The notes beneath the pieces were generated by a model. The model was not told the DNA's origin, searched no databases, and saw only the letters and a program-made list of their open reading frames with translations. The translations under genes were made by a program, and so were the position numbers. Positions 17,630 to 62,089 of a stretch of 64,000 nucleotides of DNA are shown here, one piece after another. This DNA comes from Roseovarius dicentrarchi (GTDB lineage Bacteria > Pseudomonadota > Alphaproteobacteria > Rhodobacterales > Rhodobacteraceae). Within the stretch, counting starts at the first letter, position 1, and each line of letters starts with the position of its first letter. The stretch lies in NCBI RefSeq assembly GCF_003316635.1, contig NZ_QNQP01000007.1:62001-126000 (forward strand), written 5' to 3'.

Positions 17630-17737
17630 ACTTAATCTGCGACATTCCGGCCCCAGCCCGCTTTTCGATGTCGGTTTCACTTGAGCCACGGGGCAAACTT
17701 GCCCAAAAAGGGACCGGCAAGCACATCAGGAGTTCGC

Positions 17738-20599
17738 GTGTCCCTCTTCCTTGTTGCACTTTTGCCGTTTCTCGGGGCGCTTTTGCCCGGCCTGATGAAT
17801 TCCGCCGGCCGTCAGGCCTGCGCCGGGGTGACGGGGGCGGTGACGCTGACCGCGCTGATCGGGCTTTTAACCAACGCGCCCGCCGTCTTTGCCGGGCAGG
17901 TCGTCACCGCGCGGCTGGATTGGCTGCCCAGCATCGGCATGAACGTGAACCTGATGCTGGACCCGCTGGGATTCTTCTTTGCCTGTCTCATCCTGGGCAT
18001 CGGCCTTCTGATCATCGCCTATGCGCGGTTCTACCTGTCGCGCGACGATCACATGGGCGAATTTTTCACCTACCTTCTGCTGTTCCAGGGCGCGATGGTC
18101 GGCATCGTTCTGAGCGACAACATACTGGTTCTGCTCATTTTCTGGGAGCTGACATCGCTGTCCTCCTTCCTGCTGATCGGCTACTGGAAACACCTGCCCG
18201 AAGGGCGGCAAGGCGCGCGCATGGCGCTGACCGTGACCGGCATGGGCGGGCTGGCCCTGATCGGGGGGATGCTGATCCTGGGCCAGATCGCGGGCAGCTA
18301 TGACCTGAGCGTTCTTCTGGAGCGGCGCGACATCATTCAGGCGTCGCCGCTCTATGTTCCGGCGCTGCTGCTGATCCTCTTGGGCTGCTTCACCAAATCG
18401 GCGCAATTCCCGTTCCATTTCTGGCTGCCGCATGCCATGGCGGCCCCCACCCCGGTCAGTGCCTATCTGCACTCGGCCACCATGGTGAAGGCCGGGATTT
18501 TCCTGATGGCGCGTCTGTGGCCGGTCCTGTCGGGCACGCCCGAATGGTTCGTGATCGTCACCGGCGCGGGGCTGATTACCATGGTGCTGGGCGCCGTGAT
18601 TGCACTGTTCAAGCATGACCTGAAGGCGCTGCTGGCCTTCTCGACCGTCAGCCATCTGGGCCTGATTACCATGCTGCTGGGCACAGGCACGCCGTTCGGC
18701 GTGCTGGCGGCGATGTTTCATATCCTGAACCACGCCACGTTCAAGGCGGCGCTGTTCATGTCGGCGGGCATCATCGACCACGCGGTGCATACCCGCGACA
18801 TCCGGCGCCTTGGCGGGCTGCGCCGGCTGATGCCGATCACCTTTGTAATTGCAACGCTGGGCGCGCTCTCGATGGCAGGTGTTCCGCTGCTGAATGGCTT
18901 CCTGAGCAAGGAAATGATGCTGGAGCAGTCGCTCAAGACCGTGCTTTTCGGGCAGCCTTGGCTTGTGCCGGTGCTGGTGCTGGTCGGCTCGCTGTTTTCG
19001 GCGGCCTACAGCTTCCGCCTGATCGCGCACACGTTCCTTGGCCCCGTGCGCAAGGATTATCCCGACACGCCGCATGATCCCGGCCCCGGCCTGTGGCTGC
19101 CGCCTGCCCTGCTGATCGTGCCGGTCGTGGCCATCGGCGTGGCGCCGTTTCTGGCCGAGCCATTCGTCAAGCTGGTCACGCAGGCCGTTCTGGGCAGCAC
19201 CGCAGACACCCCCTATGCCCATTTCAAGATCTGGCACGGGTTGGTGCCTGCCCTCTGGATGTCGGTCATTGCCACGGTCGGCGCGCTGGCGCTGCTGGCG
19301 CTGCACCGCCCGGCGCAGCGGCTGTGGGATGCCACGCCCCGCCCCGAGGCCAAAGCGATTTTCGACCACATCATCGCCGCCGCCCTGCGCGCCGCGCGCG
19401 GCATCATCCAACCGCTGCATGATGGCGCCTTTACCCGCTACGGCGCGATCATGGCGGCAACGGTGGTCGCCGCCGGCGCGCATGCGTGGTTTACCGGCAG
19501 CGTGGCGCCGGCCGATTATACCATGTTGCCGCTGGGGCCGATTTCCGTCGCAGCGTGGCTGATGCTGGTGGCCGCAACCCTGTCGCTGGTGCTGCTGCAC
19601 CGCAACCGCCTGCTGTCGCTGATCCTGCTGGGCATCGTCGGCCTGATCGTATCGGTCGGCTTCGTCTATTTCAGCGCGCCGGATCTGGCGCTGACGCAAT
19701 TCACGGTTGAGGTTGTCACGACCATTCTGATGCTGCTGGCGCTGAATTTCCTGCCCAATACCACCCCGAAGGAAAGCACGATCCTGCGCCGCACCCGCGA
19801 TGCCGCCGTCGCCGTTGCGGGCGGGCTGGGGGCGATGGGAATCGCGTATTACTATCTGCTGCGCGATCCGGTGGCCGAGTCCATTTCGGCCTTTCATCTG
19901 GCCAATTCGTACAAGGGCGGCGGCGGCACCAACGTCGTGAACGTCATCCTTGTCGATTTTCGTGGCTTTGACACGTTTGGCGAAATCATCGTCCTGGGCA
20001 TCGCCGCCCTGCTGATCTACGCCTTGACCGAGGCGCTGCTGGACGGCCCGGTGCGCGCGCGTCTGCTAAACCGCAAACCCGACCAGCCGCGCGGCGGCGA
20101 CGTGCACCCGCTGATGATGGTGGTGCTGACCCGCGTGATCATGCCGGTGGTGCTGATGGTCGGCTTCTACATCTTCCTGCGTGGCCATAACGAGCCGGGC
20201 GGCGGCTTTATCGCCGGGCTGATCGTGTCGATCGGCGTGGTCATGCAATACATGGCCAGCGGCTTCAGCTGGACATCGGCGCGGCTGCGCTACCCCTATC
20301 ACGGCGTGATCGGCGCGGGGGTTCTGATCGCCGGGCTGACCGGCATGGGATCGTGGTTCTTTGCCAAGCCGTTCCTGACCTCGGATTTCGCCTATGTGCG
20401 TATTCCGCCCTTCGAGAAGTTCGAGCTGGCCACCGCCGCCCTGTTCGATCTGGGCGTGTTCCTCGCCGTCGTCGGCGCCGTCATGCTGTCGCTGGAGAGC
20501 TTCTCGCGCCTTGCGCGCCGCGCCCATGTGCCCGACAGCGAACATCCCATGGACATCGACCCGACGCGCGAAAACCTCAACACCGCAAAGGAGGTCTGA
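17738..20599 (+). CDS. mnhA: Mrp Na+/H+ antiporter subunit A fused to subunit B
   Basis: 953 residues. The first ~500 resemble the NuoL-type proton antiporter core (LWELTS-like FWELTSLSSFLLIGYW, KSAQFPFHFWLPHAMAAPTPVSAYLHSATMV). MrpA-specific membrane helices follow, and a C-terminal ~150-residue MnhB domain starts near PRGGDVHPLMMVVLTRVIMP and carries NEPGGGFIAGL. The fused A/B form is usual in proteobacteria and explains why no separate mnhB follows. The complex exports Na+ or K+ in exchange for protons. GTG 17738 is chosen because CAGGAG is 5 bp upstream; a TTG at 17681 would add 19 unlikely residues. Confidence 0.94.
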   Translation: MSLFLVALLPFLGALLPGLMNSAGRQACAGVTGAVTLTALIGLLTNAPAVFAGQVVTARLDWLPSIGMNVNLMLDPLGFFFACLILGIGLLIIAYARFYLSRDDHMGEFFTYLLLFQGAMVGIVLSDNILVLLIFWELTSLSSFLLIGYWKHLPEGRQGARMALTVTGMGGLALIGGMLILGQIAGSYDLSVLLERRDIIQASPLYVPALLLILLGCFTKSAQFPFHFWLPHAMAAPTPVSAYLHSATMVKAGIFLMARLWPVLSGTPEWFVIVTGAGLITMVLGAVIALFKHDLKALLAFSTVSHLGLITMLLGTGTPFGVLAAMFHILNHATFKAALFMSAGIIDHAVHTRDIRRLGGLRRLMPITFVIATLGALSMAGVPLLNGFLSKEMMLEQSLKTVLFGQPWLVPVLVLVGSLFSAAYSFRLIAHTFLGPVRKDYPDTPHDPGPGLWLPPALLIVPVVAIGVAPFLAEPFVKLVTQAVLGSTADTPYAHFKIWHGLVPALWMSVIATVGALALLALHRPAQRLWDATPRPEAKAIFDHIIAAALRAARGIIQPLHDGAFTRYGAIMAATVVAAGAHAWFTGSVAPADYTMLPLGPISVAAWLMLVAATLSLVLLHRNRLLSLILLGIVGLIVSVGFVYFSAPDLALTQFTVEVVTTILMLLALNFLPNTTPKESTILRRTRDAAVAVAGGLGAMGIAYYYLLRDPVAESISAFHLANSYKGGGGTNVVNVILVDFRGFDTFGEIIVLGIAALLIYALTEALLDGPVRARLLNRKPDQPRGGDVHPLMMVVLTRVIMPVVLMVGFYIFLRGHNEPGGGFIAGLIVSIGVVMQYMASGFSWTSARLRYPYHGVIGAGVLIAGLTGMGSWFFAKPFLTSDFAYVRIPPFEKFELATAALFDLGVFLAVVGAVMLSLESFSRLARRAHVPDSEHPMDIDPTRENLNTAKEV

Positions 20600-20600
20600 G

Positions 20601-20954
20601 ATGGAGCTGCTTGTCGCATCCGCCATCGGCATCCTGACCGCTGCCGGCCTTTACCTTGTTCAGCGCCTGCGCACGTTTCCGGTGATTATCGGCGTGTCGC
20701 TGCTGACCTATGCGGTCAACGTATTCCTTTTTGCCTCGGGCCGTTTGACCATCGGCGCGCCGCCGATCCTGAGCGATGCGCAAACCTATACCGACCCGTT
20801 GCCGCAGGCGCTGGTTTTGACGGCCATCGTAATTTCGTTCGGCATGACGGCAGTGGTGGTGATGATCGCGCTGGGCGCCTATCTGGGCGCGGATGACGAC
20901 CATGTGAACGACCCCGCGGAGAGCGGCGACACAGATCCGGAGGCCGCGAAATGA
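20601..20954 (+). CDS. mnhC: Mrp antiporter subunit C
   Basis: 117 residues with three membrane helices, a NuoK-like small subunit. The segment TDPLPQALVLTAIVISFGMTA is diagnostic for MnhC. AAAGGAGGT lies 7 bp before the ATG, inside the end of mnhA, giving strong translation. The stop overlaps the mnhD start (ATGA). It is needed for assembly of the multi-subunit antiporter in the inner membrane. The C-terminal tail is short and acidic (residues ~100-117). Confidence 0.94.
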   Translation: MELLVASAIGILTAAGLYLVQRLRTFPVIIGVSLLTYAVNVFLFASGRLTIGAPPILSDAQTYTDPLPQALVLTAIVISFGMTAVVVMIALGAYLGADDDHVNDPAESGDTDPEAAK

Positions 20955-22486
20955 TGCACTGGATCATTCTGCCCGTCATCCTGCCAGCGGTTCTGGCACC
21001 TTTCATCGTGCTGGCGGCCCGCTATCACATCGGGATCCAGCGCGTTTTGTCGGTGGCGGGTGTTCTGGCGCTGGTGGCCATCACGGCGGGGCTGGCGATG
21101 CAGGCATCGGACGGCACGGTGACGCTGTATCAGTTGGGCGACTGGGCGGCGCCCTTCGGCATCGTGCTGGTGGCGGACCGGCTGTCGACAATGATGGCGC
21201 TGCTGACCGCGATCCTTGGCCTGTGCGTCCTGCTTTATTCTATAGGATCGAAATGGGACGCGCGCGGGCGCCATTTTCACGCGCTGTTCCAGTTTCAGAT
21301 GATGGGCCTGATGGGCGCGTTTCTGACCGGGGATCTGTTCAACCTGTTCGTGTTCTTCGAGGTGCTTCTGATCGCCTCCTACGGGCTGATGATCCACTCG
21401 GGCGGGCATGTGCGGCTGCGCGCGGGCGTGCAATATGTGCTGTATAACCTTCTGGGGTCGACGCTGTTTTTGTTCGCGCTCGGCGCGCTATATGCGGAAA
21501 CCGGCACGCTGAACATGGCCGATCTGGCAGGCCGCGTGGCACTGATCGATGCGGGCGGCAGCGTCGGCATCCGCGTGGCGGCAGTGCTGCTGCTGCTGGT
21601 TTTCGCCATCAAGGCGGCGGTCGTCCCGCTGCATTTCTGGCTGCCCTCCAGCTACGCCGAGGCGCCCGGCCCGGTTGCCGCCCTCTTTGCCATCATGACC
21701 AAGGTGGGCGCCTATGCCATCATCCGCGTCTATACGCTGATCTTTCCGCCGGATCTGGAGGTGACGGCGGGCCTGCACAGCCTGTGGCTGGCCCCCGCCG
21801 CCCTCATCTCGATCGCGGTCGGCATGATCGGCGTGCTGGCCGCGCGGCGGCTGGACAGGCTGGTGGCCTTCGCGGTCATCGGGTCCATGGGCATGGTGAT
21901 GATCGCCATCGCGTTGTTCACGCAGGCCGGCATTGCCGCCGCGCTCTATTACATCCCGCATTCCACGCTGGCGGCGGCGGTCCTGTTCCTGACCGCCGAT
22001 CTGGTCCGCAGCGGGCGCGCGCATCTGGACCTGCGCGCAGCGCCGCCGATTGCCGGCGCGTCGCTGACAGCGGGGATGTTCTTTGTCGCCGCGATTGCGA
22101 TGATCGGCCTGCCGCCCCTGTCGGGATTTGTCGGCAAGCTGCTGATTCTGAACGCGGCAATCAACTCGCCGTTGGTGGTCTGGATCTGGGCGGTCGTGCT
22201 CTGCACCAGCCTGATCAGCATCGTCGGGTTTTCGCGCGCGGGCAGCACCGTGTTCTGGAAGGCCCTCGCACTGCCTGCCGAAGATACGCAAGCCCCGCCC
22301 CCATCGGCGCTGGCATTTACAGCGGTTGGCGGCCTGCTGGCATTGCTCATTGCGCTGACAGTTCTGGCCGGTCCGGTCCACCGATATACAACCGCGATTG
22401 CCGCGCAACTCTTCGCGCCGGCGCCCTATATCGGTATGGTCCTGGACACACCCGGCAAGCTTAGCCCGCCGCAGGAGGGGAATTGA
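20951..22486 (+). CDS. mnhD: Mrp antiporter subunit D
   Basis: 511 residues, about 14 membrane helices, homologous to NuoM/NuoN. Key features are the TM5 glutamate in FEVLLIASYGLM, the lysine-bearing FAIKAAVVPLHFWLPSSYAEAPGPVAA block and a second KVGAYAIIR lysine. These residues form the proton path in this superfamily. ATGATG starts are adjacent, and the first is taken. The gene overlaps mnhC by 4 bp and is separated from mnhE by 1 bp. Confidence 0.94.
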   Translation: MMHWIILPVILPAVLAPFIVLAARYHIGIQRVLSVAGVLALVAITAGLAMQASDGTVTLYQLGDWAAPFGIVLVADRLSTMMALLTAILGLCVLLYSIGSKWDARGRHFHALFQFQMMGLMGAFLTGDLFNLFVFFEVLLIASYGLMIHSGGHVRLRAGVQYVLYNLLGSTLFLFALGALYAETGTLNMADLAGRVALIDAGGSVGIRVAAVLLLLVFAIKAAVVPLHFWLPSSYAEAPGPVAALFAIMTKVGAYAIIRVYTLIFPPDLEVTAGLHSLWLAPAALISIAVGMIGVLAARRLDRLVAFAVIGSMGMVMIAIALFTQAGIAAALYYIPHSTLAAAVLFLTADLVRSGRAHLDLRAAPPIAGASLTAGMFFVAAIAMIGLPPLSGFVGKLLILNAAINSPLVVWIWAVVLCTSLISIVGFSRAGSTVFWKALALPAEDTQAPPPSALAFTAVGGLLALLIALTVLAGPVHRYTTAIAAQLFAPAPYIGMVLDTPGKLSPPQEGN

Positions 22487-22487
22487 C

Positions 22488-22988
22488 ATGACGCGCGCGT
22501 TTTACTGGCTGTTTCCGCATCCGTTTCTGACCCTGTTGCTGGTCGCCGTCTGGCTGCTGCTGCAAGGCACCTTGTCGCCGGGCATGGCGGTGTTCGGGCT
22601 GATCCTGGGCATTTTGATCCCGTGGAGCACATCGGTATGGTGGCCCGGCACGCCGCGCGGTTTCCGGGTGGGCCGCATGGCCGTCTACATCGTGATCGTG
22701 CTGTGGGACATCATGGTTGCCAACGTGCAGGTCGCGTGGATTGTCCTGACCAAACCCAATGCCAGCCTGCGCCCCGCCTGGGTGGTTGTGCCCCTGGATC
22801 TGCGCAAGCCCGAGGCGATCACCGTGCTTGCCGGGACCGTCACGCTGACACCCGGCACCGTCTCGGCGGACCTGTCCGACGAGGGTCACAGCCTGCTGGT
22901 GCACGCGCTGCACACCGATGATCCCGATGCCATCCGCGACGATATCAAGCACCGCTACGAGCGCCGCCTGCTGGAGATTTTCACATGA
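22488..22988 (+). CDS. mnhE: Mrp antiporter subunit E
   Basis: 166 residues. Two or three N-terminal membrane helices are followed by a cytoplasmic domain holding the conserved TVTLTPGTVSADL block and a final basic segment. GCAGGAGGGG is 8 bp before the ATG. It overlaps mnhF by 4 bp (ATGA). The subunit is specific to Mrp complexes and has no complex I counterpart. Confidence 0.93.
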   Translation: MTRAFYWLFPHPFLTLLLVAVWLLLQGTLSPGMAVFGLILGILIPWSTSVWWPGTPRGFRVGRMAVYIVIVLWDIMVANVQVAWIVLTKPNASLRPAWVVVPLDLRKPEAITVLAGTVTLTPGTVSADLSDEGHSLLVHALHTDDPDAIRDDIKHRYERRLLEIFT

Positions 22989-23272
22989 CCCAAGCGATGG
23001 ATGTGATGAATGTCGCACTATGGATCGCGTTTATCGCGGTCGCGGTCGCGCAAGTGATGGCCATGATCCGCCTGATAATCGGGCCGGACACCGGGGACCG
23101 GATTCTTGCGCTGGATACGATGGTGGTCAACGCAATCGGATTGATTGTCCTGCTCGGAATCGCGCAGGGCAGCCACATTTATTTCGAAGTGACGCTGATC
23201 ATCGCCATGCTGGGATTCGTCAGCACCGTCGCCTACGCGCGCTTTGTTCTGAGGGGGGATATCATCGAATGA
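22985..23272 (+). CDS. mnhF: Mrp antiporter subunit F
   Basis: 95 residues with three membrane helices. RLIIGPDTGDRILALDTM between helices 1 and 2 is the family signature. The gene is packed between mnhE and mnhG with 4-bp overlaps at both ends, so expression is strictly coupled. Confidence 0.94.
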   Translation: MTQAMDVMNVALWIAFIAVAVAQVMAMIRLIIGPDTGDRILALDTMVVNAIGLIVLLGIAQGSHIYFEVTLIIAMLGFVSTVAYARFVLRGDIIE

Positions 23273-23658
23273 TCTGGGAAATCGTTGCACTCTATGCCAT
23301 CGCCTTTTGTCTGATCGTCGGCGCGGCCTTTTCGCTGATTGGCTCGATCGGGTTGCTGAAGTTCAACGATGCCATGACACGGCTGCACGCGCCGACCAAG
23401 GTAGGGACAGTCGGCATCGGCGGCCTGCTGCTGGCGTCGATGATCCACGCGCAGATGTTCAGTGACGGCGCATGGCATGATCTGTTGATCATGGCATTCC
23501 TGTTCGTGACCGCACCGATTTCGGCGAATTTCATAGCCAAGGTTAATATCCACAAAGGCTCCTGCACCGCTCCGCCACCGCCGCCGGAGGATGACACATG
23601 GTCAACGCTGGACGTGGCCGAAGAAGACCGGGCATTGGCGCCGACGCCCAAGGGCTGA
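23269..23658 (+). CDS. mnhG: Mrp antiporter subunit G
   Basis: 129 residues with three membrane helices. GSIGLLKFNDAMTRLHAPTK is the MnhG signature. A C-terminal cytoplasmic tail of about 35 residues carries a run of five prolines and several acidic residues, longer than in the shortest homologues. It is the last gene of the antiporter operon. A weak 6-bp inverted repeat (TGGCAG...CTGCCA, about 23673-23700) follows without a T-run, and the next gene is convergent. Confidence 0.93.
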   Translation: MIWEIVALYAIAFCLIVGAAFSLIGSIGLLKFNDAMTRLHAPTKVGTVGIGGLLLASMIHAQMFSDGAWHDLLIMAFLFVTAPISANFIAKVNIHKGSCTAPPPPPEDDTWSTLDVAEEDRALAPTPKG

Positions 23659-23716: not shown

Positions 23717-24835
23717 TCATTCCGTGCCACCATCCCTCCGGCCAGGATCCCTCGGGGCAAGCGGGCCAGGGCAATTCGAGCTTACCGGCCCGCCGACCTC
23801 GCCATTCCCAGTGGCGTGCCTGTTCAAGTCCTGCGTATATGAGATGTGGCGCCCTCGCCCCGCATCCTTGGCGGCGTAAAGCGCTGTATCGGCCTCCAGC
23901 ATCAGGCGCGTTGCATCTGCATGGGCGTGCGCACAAGACAAAACCGAACCTGCACTGGCCGTAATGCTGCAATATTTATCCGCGAAGGGAATGGGCTCTG
24001 ACAGGCGCGCGATCAGTCTTTCTGCAATGTCGTGCACGATCTGCGGATCTGTCAGGCGTTTCAGGACAATCACGAATTCGTCCCCGCCGACACGGGCAAC
24101 CGTATCATCGCTGCGCGTCTCCTCGACCATGATGCGGGCGACCTCGCGCAATACGTGATCGCCTGCGGCGTGCCCCATCCTGTCATTGACCGCCTTGAAA
24201 TAATCCAGGTCCAGATGGATCAGCGCGAAATCCTGCTCGGCACTGGTTAGCTGTTCCAGCACGTAATTCATCGCGCGGCGGTTGCGCAGGCCGGTCAGCG
24301 TATCGGTATACGCCTTTTCCTCGGCCGCGATCATGGCGCCCTGTAGGCGCATGTTCAGCTTGTGGGACGCGTCCATCGCCGCCGTCTTTGCCTCAACCAG
24401 ATAGAGCATTTCAATCGCCAGATCGGTCGCGGCAAAATCGCTGCTGGTCAGCGCGAAGTCGCGCACGGCATCTACCACAGATATGCCAAAGGACAGGTTG
24501 ATCAGCACCCCGCCCTCGGGGGGCATACCGGGGGAAAGCGGCACTGCCACACCCTTGAGGTCGGTGCGCGGCGCGCCCCGCGTCCGCAAATGCAATTTGG
24601 CACCCGCCGTGGCAATCAGCATCCGCACAGAGCCGTCTGTCTGCGGGCGTTTGATGTCAAACAGCTCCGAAAACCGCGTGCCGATCAGCGATGTGCCACC
24701 GCATATTTTCACCAATGTCGGCCCGGCATGAACCAGATCGCCGCTGGCATTCAGGACCGCGTGCATCGGGCACAATACATCCATCATGGCCGCGTCAGGC
24801 CCGATCTGCGCCCTGGCGGCGGTAGGTGTCATCAT
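23717..24835 (-). CDS. Diguanylate cyclase with an HNOB-associated sensor-partner domain
   Basis: 372 residues. Residues ~18-150 resemble the HNOBA domain found next to H-NOX proteins (PMHAVLNASGDLVHAGPTL... and FDIKRP). A short helical linker (150-175) leads to a GGDEF domain with an intact active site GGDEF at 250-254, metal-binding DLDYFK, and an RxxD inhibitory site R241-D244. It should make c-di-GMP from two GTP and be subject to product inhibition. The last ~40 residues are Pro/Gly-rich and probably disordered. The ATG overlaps the upstream H-NOX-like stop by 4 bp, so the two proteins are very likely a sensor/output pair. Confidence 0.9.
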   Translation of the reverse strand: MMTPTAARAQIGPDAAMMDVLCPMHAVLNASGDLVHAGPTLVKICGGTSLIGTRFSELFDIKRPQTDGSVRMLIATAGAKLHLRTRGAPRTDLKGVAVPLSPGMPPEGGVLINLSFGISVVDAVRDFALTSSDFAATDLAIEMLYLVEAKTAAMDASHKLNMRLQGAMIAAEEKAYTDTLTGLRNRRAMNYVLEQLTSAEQDFALIHLDLDYFKAVNDRMGHAAGDHVLREVARIMVEETRSDDTVARVGGDEFVIVLKRLTDPQIVHDIAERLIARLSEPIPFADKYCSITASAGSVLSCAHAHADATRLMLEADTALYAAKDAGRGRHISYTQDLNRHATGNGEVGGPVSSNCPGPLAPRDPGRRDGGTE

Positions 24836-25419
24836 AGCGCCCCCAGTCCCAGATCGAATCTGCGCCCGCTGGCATGCTCGACCGTCAAAAGCTGAATTTC
24901 CACAATCTCTGAATCGTTTTGCCTGCCCTTGTGTTCCAGCCAGGCCAGCGCGCCGTAGTCATCGGCCAGCGCGCGCAACAGCCCGACCAGAACATGCCCG
25001 AATCCGGCGACCGGGCCACGGCACCAGACGCAAAATCGCCCGCCGCCGTGGTCGCGCAACTCAATCTCCGGCAGGATCAGATCCGACACCGCCAGACGCG
25101 CACGTGCGGGCAGGTCATCCAGTGAGTGCAGAAATTCGGTAAAGGTCGGCCCGCCAAAGCGCAGCAAGCGGCGCAAAGCCTCTAAATTCGGGTGCGAGAC
25201 GAGGAAGGTCCCGATATCCTCAAGAATATCCTGTTCTGTCCGGGCCAGCACCGCACCAAGCGCGTGCAGAACATCGCGGGTGACGTGGTCATCATAGGTC
25301 AGCATCGCCTCGAATTCGACGTAATCCAGCCCGGCGCGCCGCATCACGGCGCCCCACACATCCCGGCCATATGTATCGCGCACAAAGCGTTCTATCGACC
25401 TGTTCATCAGCCCGTGCAT
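24832..25419 (-). CDS. H-NOX-domain protein lacking the heme-ligand histidine
   Basis: 195 residues, full length for a stand-alone H-NOX domain, opening MHGLMNRSIERFV as family members do. Aligned without gaps to the LDALH region of known H-NOX proteins, the proximal heme ligand is Pro104 (LDDLP). The YxSxR propionate-binding motif is replaced by C133-R-G-P-V137. A CxxC pair, C130 and C133, sits at that place and these are the only cysteines. I confirmed the proline codon (CCC) on the DNA. Canonical H-NOX proteins bind NO or O2 through heme; this one probably does not bind heme in the usual way. ATG 25419 has GGAG 6 bp upstream; the frame opens with TTG at 25425. Confidence 0.85.
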   Translation of the reverse strand: MHGLMNRSIERFVRDTYGRDVWGAVMRRAGLDYVEFEAMLTYDDHVTRDVLHALGAVLARTEQDILEDIGTFLVSHPNLEALRRLLRFGGPTFTEFLHSLDDLPARARLAVSDLILPEIELRDHGGGRFCVWCRGPVAGFGHVLVGLLRALADDYGALAWLEHKGRQNDSEIVEIQLLTVEHASGRRFDLGLGAL

Positions 25420-25482: not shown

Positions 25483-27228
25483 TCAATATTGCGGAAATAA
25501 CTGCAAACCGCCAACCTCCAGAACCGTCCGCGGAACCGGGGCCAGCCGGTACTGACCCGTCAGCACATCCACGATTACATCATTGGAAACATAAGGATAG
25601 CTTCCAGCCAGAATATCGATCGGGAACCCTTGCCGTATCAGCCGCCCCTCGGACATGCGGTAGGACGCCAGATGCGCACCGACGTCGTCGGTTGCAAAGA
25701 GACCGATGGCGCGGTCGGTATTCTCCGACGGCTCGAACGGCGCAACCACAATGACGCAGCCGGGATGCCCACCTGTAAGGCGGCGCGCGCAGGCCTGATG
25801 AATCATCTCCCGCTCGCCGGGGTCCAGCCCGTCCAACGCGCCTTTGGGCAGGGTGACACCATCGGGGCGCAGCGGCACGATGCCGTCCAGCGTGGCAACG
25901 CCGTCATCGCGGCGATCCTTGTAGAAATCCCACCGGTTCGGGGCTTGCCGCGCCAGCGCGATTGCCGCCAACAGATCATCGTCTGCGCCGGCCTGCGCGC
26001 GCGCCTCCAGCCGGGCCAGACCGCGCCGGCCCGCAATGCCCCAGTCATGCGCCATTTCCCACAAGGCCGCTGTGCGCCCCTGTTCGGCGCGGGCAATCTG
26101 GCTGGCGGTCGCCAAACGCTCGGCGTGCAGCAGCGGGGTCAGCCACAGCGCTGCAATCGCCAGTGTCACCAGCGCCATCCAGCGGTTGACGCTGCGCTGC
26201 GCGCGCCGCCAGTCCCCACGCCGCAGCAGCGATGCGGCATAGGCCGCGGCATAGATCAGCACCACACTGGCCGAGATAAGCGCCGCGAGCCGGTCCGGCG
26301 TCAGCCCGTACTGATCCACGCGCAGCCAGACCGCCCAGACCGCCAGCGCCGGCGGCACCGGCAACATCGCGCTGAGCAGGCGAGTGGCGATCAACATCAA
26401 AGAGCCCTGCACCGATACGCTGTCATCGCGGTGAACCGCCGTCGTGACCAGCGTGATGCCTGCGACCGTCACCGCGATCAGGGTTGCCGCCGCCGAAAAC
26501 TGGCCAAACAGGCTGTCCAGCCCGCGAAACGGCAGCGCCACGATGAACACCGCCAGCACCAGCAAAAGCGCCGGCAGAAGCAGGCGCAACAACTGGATCA
26601 TCAGGAAGGGCGACAGGTAATCGCGCAGCTCATGCACAATGGCCAGCCCAAGGCCCAGCGCAATGCCGGTAATCAGATACGGCACCGGCTCCACATCCAT
26701 CAGATCGTCGATGATACCGATACCAACCAGCCCCAGCAGCTGATCTGACAGCAGCAGCACCAGCCAGACCACCGCGACAAACAGCCAGGCGGCCGTGCTG
26801 CGCACCACAAGGCTCCATGCGGCGTCGAACAGATCGCCATAGTGCCGCCAGCCGCCATGCCGGTGCAGCCCCGCGATGACGAACGGCGCCCCGATCGCCA
26901 GCAGATAGACAAACGCGGCAACGCCGTATCCGGTATCCAGAAACCGCTCGACCTCGGTATGGCGAAAGCTGGCCCAGAACAGCAGCAGCGCGGCAGGCAC
27001 CGCCATGCCCAGCGCCGCCCATAGCGCAGGGGCCAGGCGCACCGGACCCAGCAGCGCCAGCAGCACGCTGAAGAACCCCAGCCCGGCGGCCACCGGCAAA
27101 AGGGCGGCGCGCGCGGTGCTGACCAGATCCGGCAGTACATCCATCAGCCCCCATACTGCCAGGCCCGCAACGGCGCCAACGCTGGCAAATGTCAGCCGCA
27201 TTTCTATGGTTTCGGATCTGGGCAACAT
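25483..27228 (-). CDS. DUF4153 polytopic membrane protein
   Basis: 581 residues. About the first 370 are a chain of roughly 10-12 membrane helices, and the last ~200 are hydrophilic, with GWDFYKDR-like and PLRPDGVTLPKGALDGL segments. This matches the DUF4153 family, whose function is not established; some members are reported as membrane-stress or transport-related. The start at 27228 has GGAGTG 8 bp upstream; an extension to 27330 adds a basic, non-conserved stretch. It stands alone between the H-NOX operon (same strand, 63 bp downstream) and the divergent TPP riboswitch. Confidence 0.8.
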   Translation of the reverse strand: MLPRSETIEMRLTFASVGAVAGLAVWGLMDVLPDLVSTARAALLPVAAGLGFFSVLLALLGPVRLAPALWAALGMAVPAALLLFWASFRHTEVERFLDTGYGVAAFVYLLAIGAPFVIAGLHRHGGWRHYGDLFDAAWSLVVRSTAAWLFVAVVWLVLLLSDQLLGLVGIGIIDDLMDVEPVPYLITGIALGLGLAIVHELRDYLSPFLMIQLLRLLLPALLLVLAVFIVALPFRGLDSLFGQFSAAATLIAVTVAGITLVTTAVHRDDSVSVQGSLMLIATRLLSAMLPVPPALAVWAVWLRVDQYGLTPDRLAALISASVVLIYAAAYAASLLRRGDWRRAQRSVNRWMALVTLAIAALWLTPLLHAERLATASQIARAEQGRTAALWEMAHDWGIAGRRGLARLEARAQAGADDDLLAAIALARQAPNRWDFYKDRRDDGVATLDGIVPLRPDGVTLPKGALDGLDPGEREMIHQACARRLTGGHPGCVIVVAPFEPSENTDRAIGLFATDDVGAHLASYRMSEGRLIRQGFPIDILAGSYPYVSNDVIVDVLTGQYRLAPVPRTVLEVGGLQLFPQY

Positions 27229-27360
27229 GGGCGGCACTCCGGCTGTGTTTCGGCGCAGCGTACCCTCTTTTGCGGGCAAGCTGAACGCGCGATTTACCCG
27301 GCGCGCCGCGCGGCGTTTCGCCGCTTGCAAGCGCTGCGTGCCATTGCTAGGTTCGCCCTA

Positions 27361-27450
27361 TCCGTTGGGGTGCTCCGCTATGCCGGGGCTGAGAGGCGAC
27401 GCGCCGACCCATCGAACCTGATCCGGTCAGTACCGGCGGAGGGAACGGAG
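27361..27450 (+). ncRNA. TPP riboswitch (THI element)
   Basis: The conserved cores are plain: GGGGTGCTCCGC at the 5' side, GGGGCTGAGAGG (27394-27405) as the pyrimidine-sensing part, ACCCATCGAACCTGATCCGG (27408-27427) and TACCGGCGGAGGGAA ending near 27445. The flanking GGAGC closes stem P1. Thiamine pyrophosphate binding normally shuts down the genes downstream, here the thiY-tenA-thiZ-thiX salvage operon. The expression platform is probably the helix at 27555-27588 that covers the thiY ribosome site. Confidence 0.96.
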
Positions 27451-27554
27451 CATGCAAACACCGCCCGCGCGGGTTTGCGCCAGTTTTCCGTTTCATATCG
27501 CCGGTCTGTCCCAACTCGAACCTCTGCCGTGCGCAGGGCGTGGTCCAGCGGCTG

Positions 27555-27588
27555 CCTTGGCCGCCCTACGCCCGGCCACCCGCCAAGG
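27555..27588 (+). promoter_or_regulatory. Putative ribosome-site-sequestering helix of the TPP riboswitch
   Basis: CCTTGGC (27555-27561) is exactly complementary to GCCAAGG (27582-27588). The second arm contains the AAGG of the thiY Shine-Dalgarno sequence (AAGGAG, 8 bases before ATG 27596). This fits translational control by the upstream aptamer. I did not find the competing anti-sequestor with certainty. Confidence 0.5.
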
Positions 27589-27595
27589 AGCCGAC

Positions 27596-28558
27596 ATGAA
27601 ACGCCACGCTTTTGCCGCCGCACTGATCTGCGCGCTGACCGCCGCACCGGCGCTTGCGCAGGACAAGATGACGCTGGTGCTGGACTGGTTCGTCAACCCC
27701 AATCACGGACCCATCATCGTGGCGCAGGAACGCGGCTATTTCGCTGATGAAGGGCTGGCGGTGGACATCGTTGCCCCCGCCGATGCGTCCGCCCCGCCCA
27801 AGATGGTGGCGGCGGGTCAGGTCGATCTGGCCCTGTCCTACCAGCCGCAACTGCACCTTCAGGTGGCCGAGGGGCTGCCGCTGATCCGCGTCGGCACGCT
27901 GGTTGCCAGCCCGCTGAACTGCCTGCTGGCCCTGAAGGACGGCCCCATAAAGCAGATCGCAGACCTGAGGGGCGGCAAGATCGGTTATTCCGTCGCCGGC
28001 GTCGAGGAGGCATTGCTCAGCGCGATCCTGACCGCGCATGACATCGCACTGGACGAGGTCGAGATGATCAACGTCAACTGGTCGCTTGGCCCTTCGGTCA
28101 TGTCGGGTCAGGTCGATGCGGTCATCGGCGCCTACCGCAATTTCGAGCTGAACCAGATGGAGATCGAGGGCGTGCCCGGCACCTGTTTCTTCCTCGAAGA
28201 AATCGGCATCCCGTCATATGACGAGCTGATCTATGTCGCCAATCCCGGCACGATGGACGGCGCCAAAATCAGCCGCTTCCTGCGCGCGACGGCCAAGGCG
28301 ACACAATACATCGTTAACCACCCCGAGGATAGCTGGGACATTTTCAAATCCACATCGCCCGAGCTGGACGATGCCCTGAACGCCCGCGCCTGGACCGACA
28401 CGATCCCGCGCTTTGCCCTGCGCCCGGCCGCCGTGGATGTTGCGCGCTATGCCGAATTCGAGCATTTCCTGAAGGACGCGGGCCTCTTGGACAGCACGCG
28501 CCCGGTGTCCGATCTGGCGGTTGATCCGGGCAGCGATGCCGTGCAGGAGGCGCAGTAA
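27596..28558 (+). CDS. thiY: ABC transporter substrate-binding protein for a thiamine pyrimidine precursor
   Basis: 320 residues with a cleavable signal peptide (about residues 1-22, ending APALAQ). The NMT1/THI5-like fold follows, with LDWFVNPNHGPI near the start and GKIGYSV and YDELIYVANP further on. ThiY binds N-formyl-4-amino-5-aminomethyl-2-methylpyrimidine in the periplasm. The start at 27596 is preferred because AAGGAG and a good signal peptide fit; an in-frame ATG at 27452, right after the riboswitch, would bury the signal peptide. It is first in the TPP-controlled operon, and the TAATG junction couples it to tenA. Confidence 0.93.
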   Translation: MKRHAFAAALICALTAAPALAQDKMTLVLDWFVNPNHGPIIVAQERGYFADEGLAVDIVAPADASAPPKMVAAGQVDLALSYQPQLHLQVAEGLPLIRVGTLVASPLNCLLALKDGPIKQIADLRGGKIGYSVAGVEEALLSAILTAHDIALDEVEMINVNWSLGPSVMSGQVDAVIGAYRNFELNQMEIEGVPGTCFFLEEIGIPSYDELIYVANPGTMDGAKISRFLRATAKATQYIVNHPEDSWDIFKSTSPELDDALNARAWTDTIPRFALRPAAVDVARYAEFEHFLKDAGLLDSTRPVSDLAVDPGSDAVQEAQ

Positions 28559-29226
28559 TGTACGGCGATACCTTCAGCGCATGGCGCGCGGACACCGCCG
28601 AGGAATGGCACGCCTACACACACCACCCCTTTGTCGAGGGGCTGCGGACCGGCACCCTGCCCCGCGCGGCCTATCTGCACTACCTCGTGCAGGATTACGT
28701 GTTCCTCATCCACTTCTCCCGCGCATGGGCGCTGGCCGTGACCAAGGCCGAGACGGTCGAGGAAATGCGCTTTGCCGCCGGCACGCTGGATGCGCTGCTC
28801 AACGGGGAAATTGCGCTGCACATCGCCACCTGCGCCCGCGACGGCATTGACGAGGCAACGCTATTTGCCGCGCCCGAGGCGGTGCAGAACATCGCCTACA
28901 CGCGCTATGTGCTGGATGCGGGCCATTCGGGCGATTTTCTGGATCTGCTGGCGGCGCTGGCGCCCTGCGTTCTGGGTTACGGCGAAATCGGTCTGCGGCT
29001 GGCGGCTGGCCGGGGCGACACGCCCTATGGCGACTGGATCGACACCTATGCGGGGCCGGACTACCAGCAGGCCTGCCGCGATACCGGCGCGCTGATGGAT
29101 GCGGCGGTGACTCGCCGGCTGGGACCGGTGCCGCAGGACAGCCCGCGCTGGGCGGCCCTGTCGGGGCGGTTCGCCACCGCCACGCGGCTGGAAATCGGGT
29201 TCTGGGATATGGGTCTGGCCGGATGA
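28558..29226 (+). CDS. tenA: Thiaminase II / aminopyrimidine aminohydrolase
   Basis: 222 residues, the TenA length. The catalytic Cys is visible as C137 in APCVLGYGEIG, with the upstream HPFVEGLRTGTLP and YLVQDYVFLIHF blocks lining the pocket. The enzyme hydrolyses aminomethyl- or aminopyrimidines to hydroxymethylpyrimidine for thiamine salvage. Its place between the binding protein and the ABC components matches the salvage route: ThiXYZ imports the formylated aminopyrimidine, a deformylase acts, then TenA. Overlaps: 1 bp with thiY and 4 bp with thiZ. No thiD or thiE gene is in this window. Confidence 0.93.
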   Translation: MYGDTFSAWRADTAEEWHAYTHHPFVEGLRTGTLPRAAYLHYLVQDYVFLIHFSRAWALAVTKAETVEEMRFAAGTLDALLNGEIALHIATCARDGIDEATLFAAPEAVQNIAYTRYVLDAGHSGDFLDLLAALAPCVLGYGEIGLRLAAGRGDTPYGDWIDTYAGPDYQQACRDTGALMDAAVTRRLGPVPQDSPRWAALSGRFATATRLEIGFWDMGLAG

Positions 29227-29945
29227 CAGCCCCCGGCATCACGCTGAACGGGTCCGTCGATATCGGAGGTGCGCCGCTGATTGCGCAGATCGCGCTTGCG
29301 GTGGCGCCCGGCCAATGGACCTGCCTTCTGGGCGCGTCCGGCGTGGGCAAATCCACCCTGCTGCGCCTGATCGCGGGCATCGCGGACGAGGCAGCGCTGA
29401 CCGGCACGCTGGCGGCCGGCGATGGCGCGCCGCTGGCCGGGCGCGTGGCGCTGATGGCACAATCGGACCTGCTGCTGCCCTGGCTGACCGTGGCGGAAAA
29501 CGTGGCGCTGGGCGCCCGGCTGCGCGGCACGGCGCCCGACAAGGCCCGCGTGGCGCAAAGGCTGGCCGATGTCGGGCTGGCCGCGCAGGCCGCCCAGCGC
29601 CCCGCCACGTTATCGGGCGGCCAGCGCCAGCGCGCCGCGCTTGCCCGTACCCTGATGGAGGACCGGCCCATCGTGCTGCTGGACGAGCCATTCTCGGCGC
29701 TGGATGCGCGCACCCGCGCGCAGGTGCAGGACGTGGCGGCAGAGCTGCTGCGCGGCAAGACCGTGCTGATGGTCACCCATGACCCGGCCGAGGCGGCGAG
29801 GCTGAGCGATGCGATCCTTGTCCTGGACACCGGCGGCCTGCGCAGCCATGCCGCCCCGCCCGGCGCACCGCCCCGCGCGGTGGACGATGCGCAGATGCTC
29901 AGCGCGCAGGGCGCGCTGCTGGCCGAATTGCGGGCAGGATCGTGA
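29223..29945 (+). CDS. thiZ: ABC transporter ATP-binding subunit for the thiamine pyrimidine precursor
   Basis: 240 residues. Walker A is GASGVGKST (about residues 38-46), the signature LSGGQRQR lies near 133-140, Walker B is IVLLDEPFSALD, and the switch His is in VTHDPAEAARL. It powers import by ThiX and ThiY. It shares 4 bp with tenA and 4 bp with thiX. The substrate is assigned from the riboswitch and operon, since the ATPase alone resembles nitrate/taurine-type importers. Confidence 0.92.
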   Translation: MTAPGITLNGSVDIGGAPLIAQIALAVAPGQWTCLLGASGVGKSTLLRLIAGIADEAALTGTLAAGDGAPLAGRVALMAQSDLLLPWLTVAENVALGARLRGTAPDKARVAQRLADVGLAAQAAQRPATLSGGQRQRAALARTLMEDRPIVLLDEPFSALDARTRAQVQDVAAELLRGKTVLMVTHDPAEAARLSDAILVLDTGGLRSHAAPPGAPPRAVDDAQMLSAQGALLAELRAGS

Positions 29946-30679
29946 GGCGCGCGGGCAGCATCATCGCCTCGGCCCTCGTGGCGCTGGCGGCGTGGCAGGC
30001 GCTGGTCCTGCTGACGGGCGTGCCGCGCTTTATCCTGCCCGGCCCGGCACTGGTGGCCGAAACGCTGTGGACCAGCCGCGCGCTGATTGCCCATCACACC
30101 ATGATCACCGCGATCGAGGTGCTGGCCGGCCTTGCCCTGGGCGCCAGTCTGGGCGGCGCGACAGCCGTTGCGCTGGCCGCCTCGCCGCTGGCCCGGCAAC
30201 TGGTGCGCCCGATGCTGATCTTCAGTCAGGCGGTGCCGGTGTTCGCGCTGGCGCCGATCCTGACGCTATGGTTCGGCTATGGCATCGGCTCGAAAATCGT
30301 GATGACGTTGCTGGTGATCTATTTCCCGGTCACATCGGCATTTTTCGACGCGCTGATGCGCACCCCGCAGGCATGGGTCGACATGGCCCGCCTGATGGGC
30401 GCCAGCCCCGCGCGCATTATGCGCCATATCCGCATTCCCGCCGCGCTGCCCGGCTTTGCCTCTGGCCTGCGGCTGGCGGCGGTCTATGCGCCGATTGGCG
30501 CGATCATCGGCGAATGGGTGGGCGCGTCCAAGGGGCTTGGCTATCTGATGCTGCTGGCCAATGGCCGCGCGAAAACCGACCTGATGTTTGCCGCGCTGAT
30601 CGTACTGGCCGTCTGCACCGTCCTGCTGCACGCCGCCGTCGACCGCGCCTGCCGCGCCACGCTGGACCGAAATGGCTAA
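29942..30679 (+). CDS. thiX: ABC transporter permease for the thiamine pyrimidine precursor
   Basis: 245 residues starting at GTG 29942 in a GTGA overlap with thiZ. It has six membrane helices and the EAA-type loop DMARLMGASPARIMRHIRIPAALPG-like block (about residues 144-168) that contacts the ATPase. It belongs to the SsuC/TauC-like permease family. Last gene of the operon. No terminator is visible in the 114 bp before the YihY-family gene, so read-through is possible. Confidence 0.92.
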   Translation: MRRAGSIIASALVALAAWQALVLLTGVPRFILPGPALVAETLWTSRALIAHHTMITAIEVLAGLALGASLGGATAVALAASPLARQLVRPMLIFSQAVPVFALAPILTLWFGYGIGSKIVMTLLVIYFPVTSAFFDALMRTPQAWVDMARLMGASPARIMRHIRIPAALPGFASGLRLAAVYAPIGAIIGEWVGASKGLGYLMLLANGRAKTDLMFAALIVLAVCTVLLHAAVDRACRATLDRNG

Positions 30680-61008: not shown

Positions 61009-62089
61009 GCCACTGACATCCGGGCCACTGAAAACCGGCGCGACCATCGGCATCCTTGGCGGAGGACAACTGGGCCGGATGCTGTCTGTCGCCGCCTCCC
61101 GCCTTGGGTTCAAGACCTGCATCTTCGAGCCGGGCGCGGATTGCCCCGCCTCCCACGTCGCCAACCGCCATATCGCCGCGCCCTATGAGGATGAAGCCGC
61201 GCTGCGCGATTTCGCCGACACCTGCGATGTGATCACCTTCGAGTTCGAGAATATCCCGACCTCGGCGCTGGATATCCTTGAAAAACTGCGCCCCGTTCAC
61301 CCCAACCGCATGGCGCTGCGCGTCAGTCAGGACCGGCTGGTGGAAAAGGCGTTTCTGAACGATCTGGGCCTGAAAACAGCACCTTTCGCCGCTGTTGATG
61401 ACAGCGAGGACATCAGTCAGGCGATGGAGGAAATCGGCCTGCCTGCGATCCTGAAAACCCGCCGCTTTGGCTATGACGGCAAGGGTCAGGTGCGCCTGCG
61501 CGCGCCTGAGGATGCCGATGGCGCGCTGGCCGATATGAATGGCGCGCCCGGTATCTACGAGGGGTTCGTCGATTTCACCCACGAGGTGTCCGTAATCGCC
61601 GCGCGCAATGCGGCGGGTGATGTATCGGTCTTCGATCCGGGGGAAAATGTGCATGAGGATGGCATCCTGCGCACCACCACCATCCCGGCCCGCCTGTCGC
61701 CGCCGCAGCGCAGTGACGCGGTGCTGCTGGCCGCCAAGATATTGAACAAGCTGGATTATGTCGGCGTCATGGGGGTCGAGCTGTTCGTGACGGCGGATGG
61801 CCTGATCGTCAACGAGATAGCCCCGCGCGTGCATAATTCCGGCCACTGGACGCAGAATGGCTGCACCGTTGACCAGTTCGAGCAGCATATTCGCGCGGTG
61901 GCCGGCTGGCCCTTGGGCGATGGCAAGCGGCATTCCAACGTGGTGATGGAAAACCTGATCGGCGACGACGTGGGCCGCGTGCCGGATCTGGCCCGCGACG
62001 GCGCCTGCGCGCTGCATCTATACGGCAAGGCCGAGGTGAAACCGGGCCGCAAGATGGGCCATGTCAACCGCGTGACAGGCCCGGCCTGA
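61001..62089 (+). CDS. purK: N5-carboxyaminoimidazole ribonucleotide synthase
   Basis: 362 residues, ATP-grasp. [17 protein letters not shown] starts the first domain; [12 protein letters not shown] is the ATP-binding loop; [18 protein letters not shown] carries the metal-binding Glu and Asn. It makes N5-CAIR from AIR, bicarbonate and ATP, feeding PurE encoded just upstream. ATG 61001 is chosen because the protein then begins at the normal place; the frame runs on to 60923. It ends 7 bp from the convergent rnr stop. Confidence 0.96.

Follow-up and report, generated by a model that had tools for sequence, protein, structure and literature searches.

A diguanylate cyclase-linked H-NOX protein of Roseovarius dicentrarchi that lacks the proximal histidine most likely belongs to a known, mostly histidine-less group

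What can an H-NOX protein do for its signaling partner once the histidine that ties it to the heme iron is gone? The question is raised by a gene of Roseovarius dicentrarchi (RefSeq assembly GCF_003316635.1, contig NZ_QNQP01000007.1) that lies in a window of 64,000 nucleotides, i.e., the whole stretch analyzed, from position 62,001 to 126,000 of the contig's forward strand; coordinates of this locus are those of the window. The encoded protein is most likely a member of 'group 5', a known and mostly His-less set of H-NOX proteins from Rhodobacteraceae. It probably serves as a heme-independent regulatory subunit of the HNOBA-GGDEF cyclase whose gene overlaps its own, and would not depend on iron of a heme coordinated by such a His. 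The features concerned are the following.

24832..25419, minus strand: H-NOX (HNOB) gene of the mostly His-less, diguanylate cyclase-linked 'group 5' type, 195 amino acids
23717..24835, minus strand: diguanylate cyclase with an HNOBA-like N-terminal part and a GGDEF domain, GGDEF and RxxD motifs intact
25108..25110, minus strand: Pro104 codon, where canonical proteins have the proximal heme His (Nostoc alignment, relatives, codon check)
25030..25032, minus strand: codon of Cys130, first Cys of the CxxC motif, a variable position (codon check)
25021..25023, minus strand: Cys133 codon, where YxSxR has its Tyr (Nostoc alignment, codon check)

The H-NOX gene runs from an ATG at 25419 to a stop codon at 24832-24834, with a TTG 6 bases upstream of the ATG as a possible alternative start. 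Its product belongs to the HNOB fold family (PF07700): the Pfam profile covers residues 2-155 well above the curated cut-off (E 2.2e-21; 76.9 bits against 25.5) and the protein has the H-NOX fold. This bears out the original prediction of a full-length H-NOX protein and adds the strand, which had been left unstated. A genome-wide profile search found no second HNOB match in the organism's own genome. Searches of NCBIfam profiles at E ≤ 0.01 and of viral predicted structures at E ≤ 0.001 returned no match. The best solved relative is the H-NOX of Nostoc sp. PCC 7120 (2O09; phmmer E 2e-17), and its alignment has a single one-residue gap after residue 36 and none across residues 37-154, so that the proximal-His region aligns free of gaps as had been claimed. 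In this alignment the proximal heme His falls on Pro104 and the propionate-anchoring Y-x-S-x-R on C133-R-G-P-V137, in agreement with the codon check. The protein thus differs from canonical H-NOX proteins (Nostoc sp. PCC 7120, Shewanella oneidensis) in lacking both the heme ligand and the anchor. C130 and C133 are the sole cysteines among its 195 residues, as both translation and codons show.

The partner gene is equally clear. The two genes overlap by 4 base pairs (24832-24835), in keeping with the adjacent GGDEF gene stated for Paracoccus denitrificans of group 5 (PMC5588039). The cyclase gives a GGDEF match at E 2.9e-41, one of five GGDEF matches in the genome-wide profile search, and the proposed retention of a cyclic di-GMP output partner is therefore upheld. 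Its HNOBA score of 23.1 bits is just below the cut-off of 23.4, and HNOBA was above the cut-off in all four relatives' cyclases tested out of 102 available.

Is this protein an oddity? Relatives were gathered by a family search from which the best-scoring matches were listed, and the counts below rest on those. An HNOB match was found in 296 of 395 genomes; within the genus, 81 of 84 genomes matched, our own included, and the best 30 of the 81 were taken as loci. Roseovarius loci (19 of 23 named loci found by pattern) are 57-84% identical to the H-NOX protein. A first reading of 154 loci gave 144 distinct rows, and 54 more loci brought the total to 198, identical rows being dropped. The Tyr of YxSxR is kept in 42 rows, 41 of which also carry His104; by a rough motif for histidine kinases, the neighboring gene in these 42 is histidine-kinase-like in 30, GGDEF in 4 and without assignment in 8, whereas the neighbor of the Roseovarius H-NOX gene is a cyclase. 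Rows without Tyr133 were defined as the diguanylate cyclase type, and only afterwards was it tested whether they form a single clade. In trees built with the columns in question left out, they do, both as 102 rows and as the later 156 (support by the Shimodaira-Hasegawa-like approximate likelihood ratio test, SH-aLRT, 98 and 99). A class-wide search, with up to eight first-look candidates scored per genome, matched at least 11 of 387 genomes, of which 6 are in the same family; the five matches outside it all have His104 and Tyr133.

The H-NOX of Paracoccus denitrificans falls within the same clade, is 36% identical to the Roseovarius protein and has Pro104; our sequence is from HAMBI_2443, a strain other than that of PMC5588039, and carries no Cys at 130 or 133. 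In excerpts of PMC8738867, the P. denitrificans sequence is the basis of a very large fifth cluster of H-NOX proteins, with a proximal His in fewer than 10% of members and mostly Pro in its place, no conserved Cys and conserved hinge glycines. Judged by clade membership, our protein is of this cluster: it shares the Pro for His, the lack of a conserved Cys pair, the hinge glycines, the adjacent GGDEF gene and the cyclic di-GMP output, and differs in having C130xxC133, which is absent from close relatives. It is hence the clade as a whole that has lost YxSxR and, mostly, the heme ligand; the CxxC motif is no such clade feature. The loss of His is already published for the group. The original prediction had known of no described example, a statement that does not stand, since the change from His to Pro is described for group 5 as a whole (PMC8738867, in excerpt) and the missing His is noted for P. 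denitrificans and Rhodobacter sphaeroides (PMC5588039, in excerpt).

At position 104, the 156 clade rows have Pro in 121, His in 15 and other residues (Q, A, R, S, N, Y, E, T, K) in 20. The 30 distinct genus rows have Pro in 29 and Gln in one; among the named Roseovarius loci, L041 has Ala and L042 Gln. All four Pro codons are used, and parsimony on 102 rows places 37 synonymous and 19 amino-acid changes here. Ranked by amino-acid changes among 191 positions, 104 comes 82nd, 133 100th, 130 155th, 135 174th and 137 186th. Constraint at position 104 is therefore only middling, and the ranks of 135 and 137 imply that the old YxSxR anchor is free to vary. Homologues had been proposed as a check on whether residues 104, 130 and 133 are conserved or randomly substituted: the outcome is mixed, as 104 is not random, 133 carries either Cys or Val in 133 of the 156 rows, and 130 is variable.

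Such losses might suggest that the gene is the decaying remnant of a nitric oxide (NO) sensor. Heme ligand and anchor are both gone, residues at 104 are mixed, and one listed family match (G322) has an internal stop. Against this, the gene is under purifying selection, with a median pairwise ratio of nonsynonymous to synonymous substitution rates of 0.139 (13 close relatives, 78 pairs; many synonymous distances exceed 1, which makes single values rough), and 14 columns are invariant and 35 nearly so among 81 rows. All 102 copies of the first set adjoin a cyclase gene whose GGDEF and RxxD motifs are intact, and 62 of these copies have an ATG in the cyclase frame at the 4-base-pair overlap (cyclase starts were picked with a preference for this overlap). 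Among the 54 copies added later, 52 adjoin a GGDEF gene and two (L169, L214) sit at contig ends, which brings the total to 154 of 156. A phenotype is also on record: in excerpts of PMC5588039, a P. denitrificans hnoX mutant shows a partial biofilm defect, absence of the adhesin BapA and faster NO consumption, and a GGDEF gene is adjacent to the H-NOX gene there too. Decay is unlikely because of the low substitution ratio and the constancy of the cyclase pairing; together with presence in nearly all genomes of the genus, these lead us to reject it, and we give it hardly any credence. The match in G322 (G322:C24:241161-241622) has one internal TAA and may be a pseudogene or a sequencing error.

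Could the two cysteines have taken over from heme? The original prediction proposed that the CxxC motif replaces the heme site, so that a redox, zinc or disulfide sensor would have arisen in this lineage. Indeed, the protein has no cysteines other than these two, which occupy the former heme-anchoring site; C133 is frequent among the clade rows (81 of 156), and a heme-free H-NOX of Vibrio cholerae that switches through zinc and cysteine redox chemistry, described in excerpts of PMC7108781, is evidence that signaling by an H-NOX does not require heme. However, C130 is found in only 8 of the 156 rows, and only two rows, our protein and L047, combine both cysteines, where independence of the positions would predict 4.2; L047 is on a distant branch, 57% identical. 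The nearest relatives (L003, L004 and L005; the closest are 84-85% identical) carry Ser130. In the 30 genus rows, position 130 is Ser in 19, Cys in 4, Thr in 4, Gln in 2 and Ala in one, and position 133 is Cys in 16, Val in 12 and Ile in 2. No Cys occurs at all in 20 of the 156 rows (added rows were read to residue 215). In the structure model, C130 and C133 share one predicted beta strand, 128-134, in which residues three apart would face opposite sides; the pair would therefore be ill suited to a disulfide or a zinc knuckle. The Vibrio protein, as far as the excerpts go, keeps its His and has four cysteines at other places, of which three are highly conserved within its group, and its zinc-binding C149, which precedes the hinge Gly by five residues, would match Gly141 of our protein. 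Our protein, with two cysteines at other positions, lacks the zinc site of that type (three Cys plus His or Gln). On the relatives' rows, the chance-level co-occurrence and the predicted strand, a conserved redox or zinc site is rejected; the CxxC motif is taken to be neutral variation without counterpart in close relatives. A new sensor site is unlikely, and replacement of the heme site by one in this lineage very much so. What the original prediction had observed is thus confirmed, and its interpretation is half right, correct on the loss of the heme ligand and anchor and on the retained partner, and wrong or unsupported on the CxxC motif as a replacement of the heme site. A literature search for CxxC in H-NOX proteins, covering titles and the beginnings of abstracts, gave nothing usable. 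Another relative, L132, has a CxxC motif at positions other than 130 and 133.

The 15 rows with His104 bear on whether heme might still be bound. One of them is informative here.

L055:2904-3485: H-NOX row of the diguanylate cyclase type with His104, Trp135 and Arg137 and without YxSxR

We take L055 to be the H-NOX of Dinoroseobacter shibae. That protein is listed, in excerpts of PMC8846402 and PMC7232146, as a heme-based NO sensor that inhibits the cyclase Dgc1. As L055, it is of the same clade and gene pair as our protein and has likewise lost YxSxR, but keeps His104, with Trp135 and Arg137. Given this reported sensor and the P. denitrificans mutant, the clade holds a reported heme sensor as well as His-less members with a phenotype. 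Our protein could still bind heme through another residue, e.g., His98, and sense NO or another gas. His98 is present in 111 of the 156 rows, a member of the clade is a listed NO sensor, the genome encodes a copper nitrite reductase by which NO could be made, and the P. denitrificans phenotypes involve NO (PMC5588039, in excerpt). Yet His98 occurs in 11 of 15 His104 rows and in 100 of the 141 others, i.e., it does not step in when His104 is lost, and as a replacement ligand it was rejected for being about equally common with and without His104. His98 and position 104 are six residues apart on one predicted helix, so that His98 should point elsewhere. The propionate anchor, moreover, is gone, with 135 and 137 among the most variable positions. 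We therefore regard heme binding through another residue as rather improbable.

Residues 104 and 135 may change together. Trp or His is found at 135 in 12 of 15 His104 rows against 8 of 121 Pro104 rows, and an aromatic residue at 135 in 17 of 35 non-Pro rows against 6 of 121 Pro rows (Fisher p 9e-9). After correction for kinship the association does not survive and is only suggestive: non-Pro and aromatic gave 12 independent pairs, with 3.6 changing the same way and 0.1 the opposite way (median p 0.25), and His against not-His gave five pairs, with 0.6 the same way and 1.1 the opposite way. Trp or His at 135 in the His104 rows without YxSxR is a possible alternative heme anchor. In a joint tree of H-NOX and cyclase (102 rows), the nine His104 rows lie outside a group of 73 rows (SH-aLRT 87), 68 of which have Pro. 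This suggests that the His form is ancestral and was then lost in the clade, but the tree is midpoint-rooted, and its weak basal branches make the number and direction of His changes tentative.

How might an H-NOX protein without its ligand regulate a cyclase? G70, P117 and G146 do not vary among the 156 clade rows or the 42 canonical rows. On an alignment by eye, by way of the switch described for canonical proteins, we take G70 and G146 to be the hinge glycines, as in group 5. In that switch, according to excerpts of PMC7108781, the proximal His gives way to NO, helix F undergoes a rotation and the halves of the protein turn about two glycines. In the Roseovarius protein the His is absent by descent, with the hinge glycines, the proximal Pro P117 and the fold kept; with Pro at the His position, the protein would be detached from the heme iron for good and its hinge would still work. 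Its native, His-detached ('NO-on-like') state could then hold down or tune the cyclase, presumably by direct contact; alternatively, switching would come from some other ligand or interaction, and the cyclase would again be held down or tuned. With the His absent and the hinge glycines, P117 and fold retained, NO-on-like or other-ligand switching would be the simplest mechanism. The NO-on-like state is less certain than the heme-independent regulatory role itself. Among the structural matches of the protein is a Shewanella H103G H-NOX mutant, which is said to mimic the NO state; a literature search for H103G found no paper on it.

Alternatively, a different hydrophobic ligand (an acyl chain, a quinone or a porphyrin without iron ligation) might occupy the former heme pocket and control the cyclase. 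We consider this, too, of low probability, but it partly overlaps with heme-independent regulation, because control by a ligand in the pocket would not depend on heme either. More tentatively, and with appreciable doubt, group 5 as a whole may consist of natural His-off H-NOX proteins in the NO-activated shape, acting as constitutive cyclase regulators or with the pocket turned to another ligand. A switch from heme to heme-free signaling would then have taken place inside one clade, in which the His104 members represent the surviving ancestral state; positions 104 and 135 would have been remodeled jointly. The H-NOX protein of R. dicentrarchi is ordinary within group 5, and how such ligand-less proteins control a cyclase, and what they sense, is a question posed in print (PMC8738867, in excerpt). 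As His-bearing and His-less members share the gene pair, comparing both could show a gas sensor becoming something else.

Other genes flank the pair. A large membrane protein of the DUF4153 family (Pfam E 5.6e-8) is encoded at 25483-27330, immediately upstream of the H-NOX gene and likewise on the minus strand. A thiamine pyrophosphate riboswitch lies at 27356-27461 on the plus strand (Rfam RF00059, 70.3 bits), and downstream of it, at about 27452-30679, open reading frames judged by eye resemble a thiamine-precursor uptake operon, with genes named, also by eye, for a substrate-binding protein, a TenA-like protein, an ATP-binding cassette ATPase and a permease. At 17681-23658 (plus strand), a run of membrane proteins, again judged by eye, resembles a multi-subunit Na+/H+ antiporter operon of the Mrp/Mnh type.
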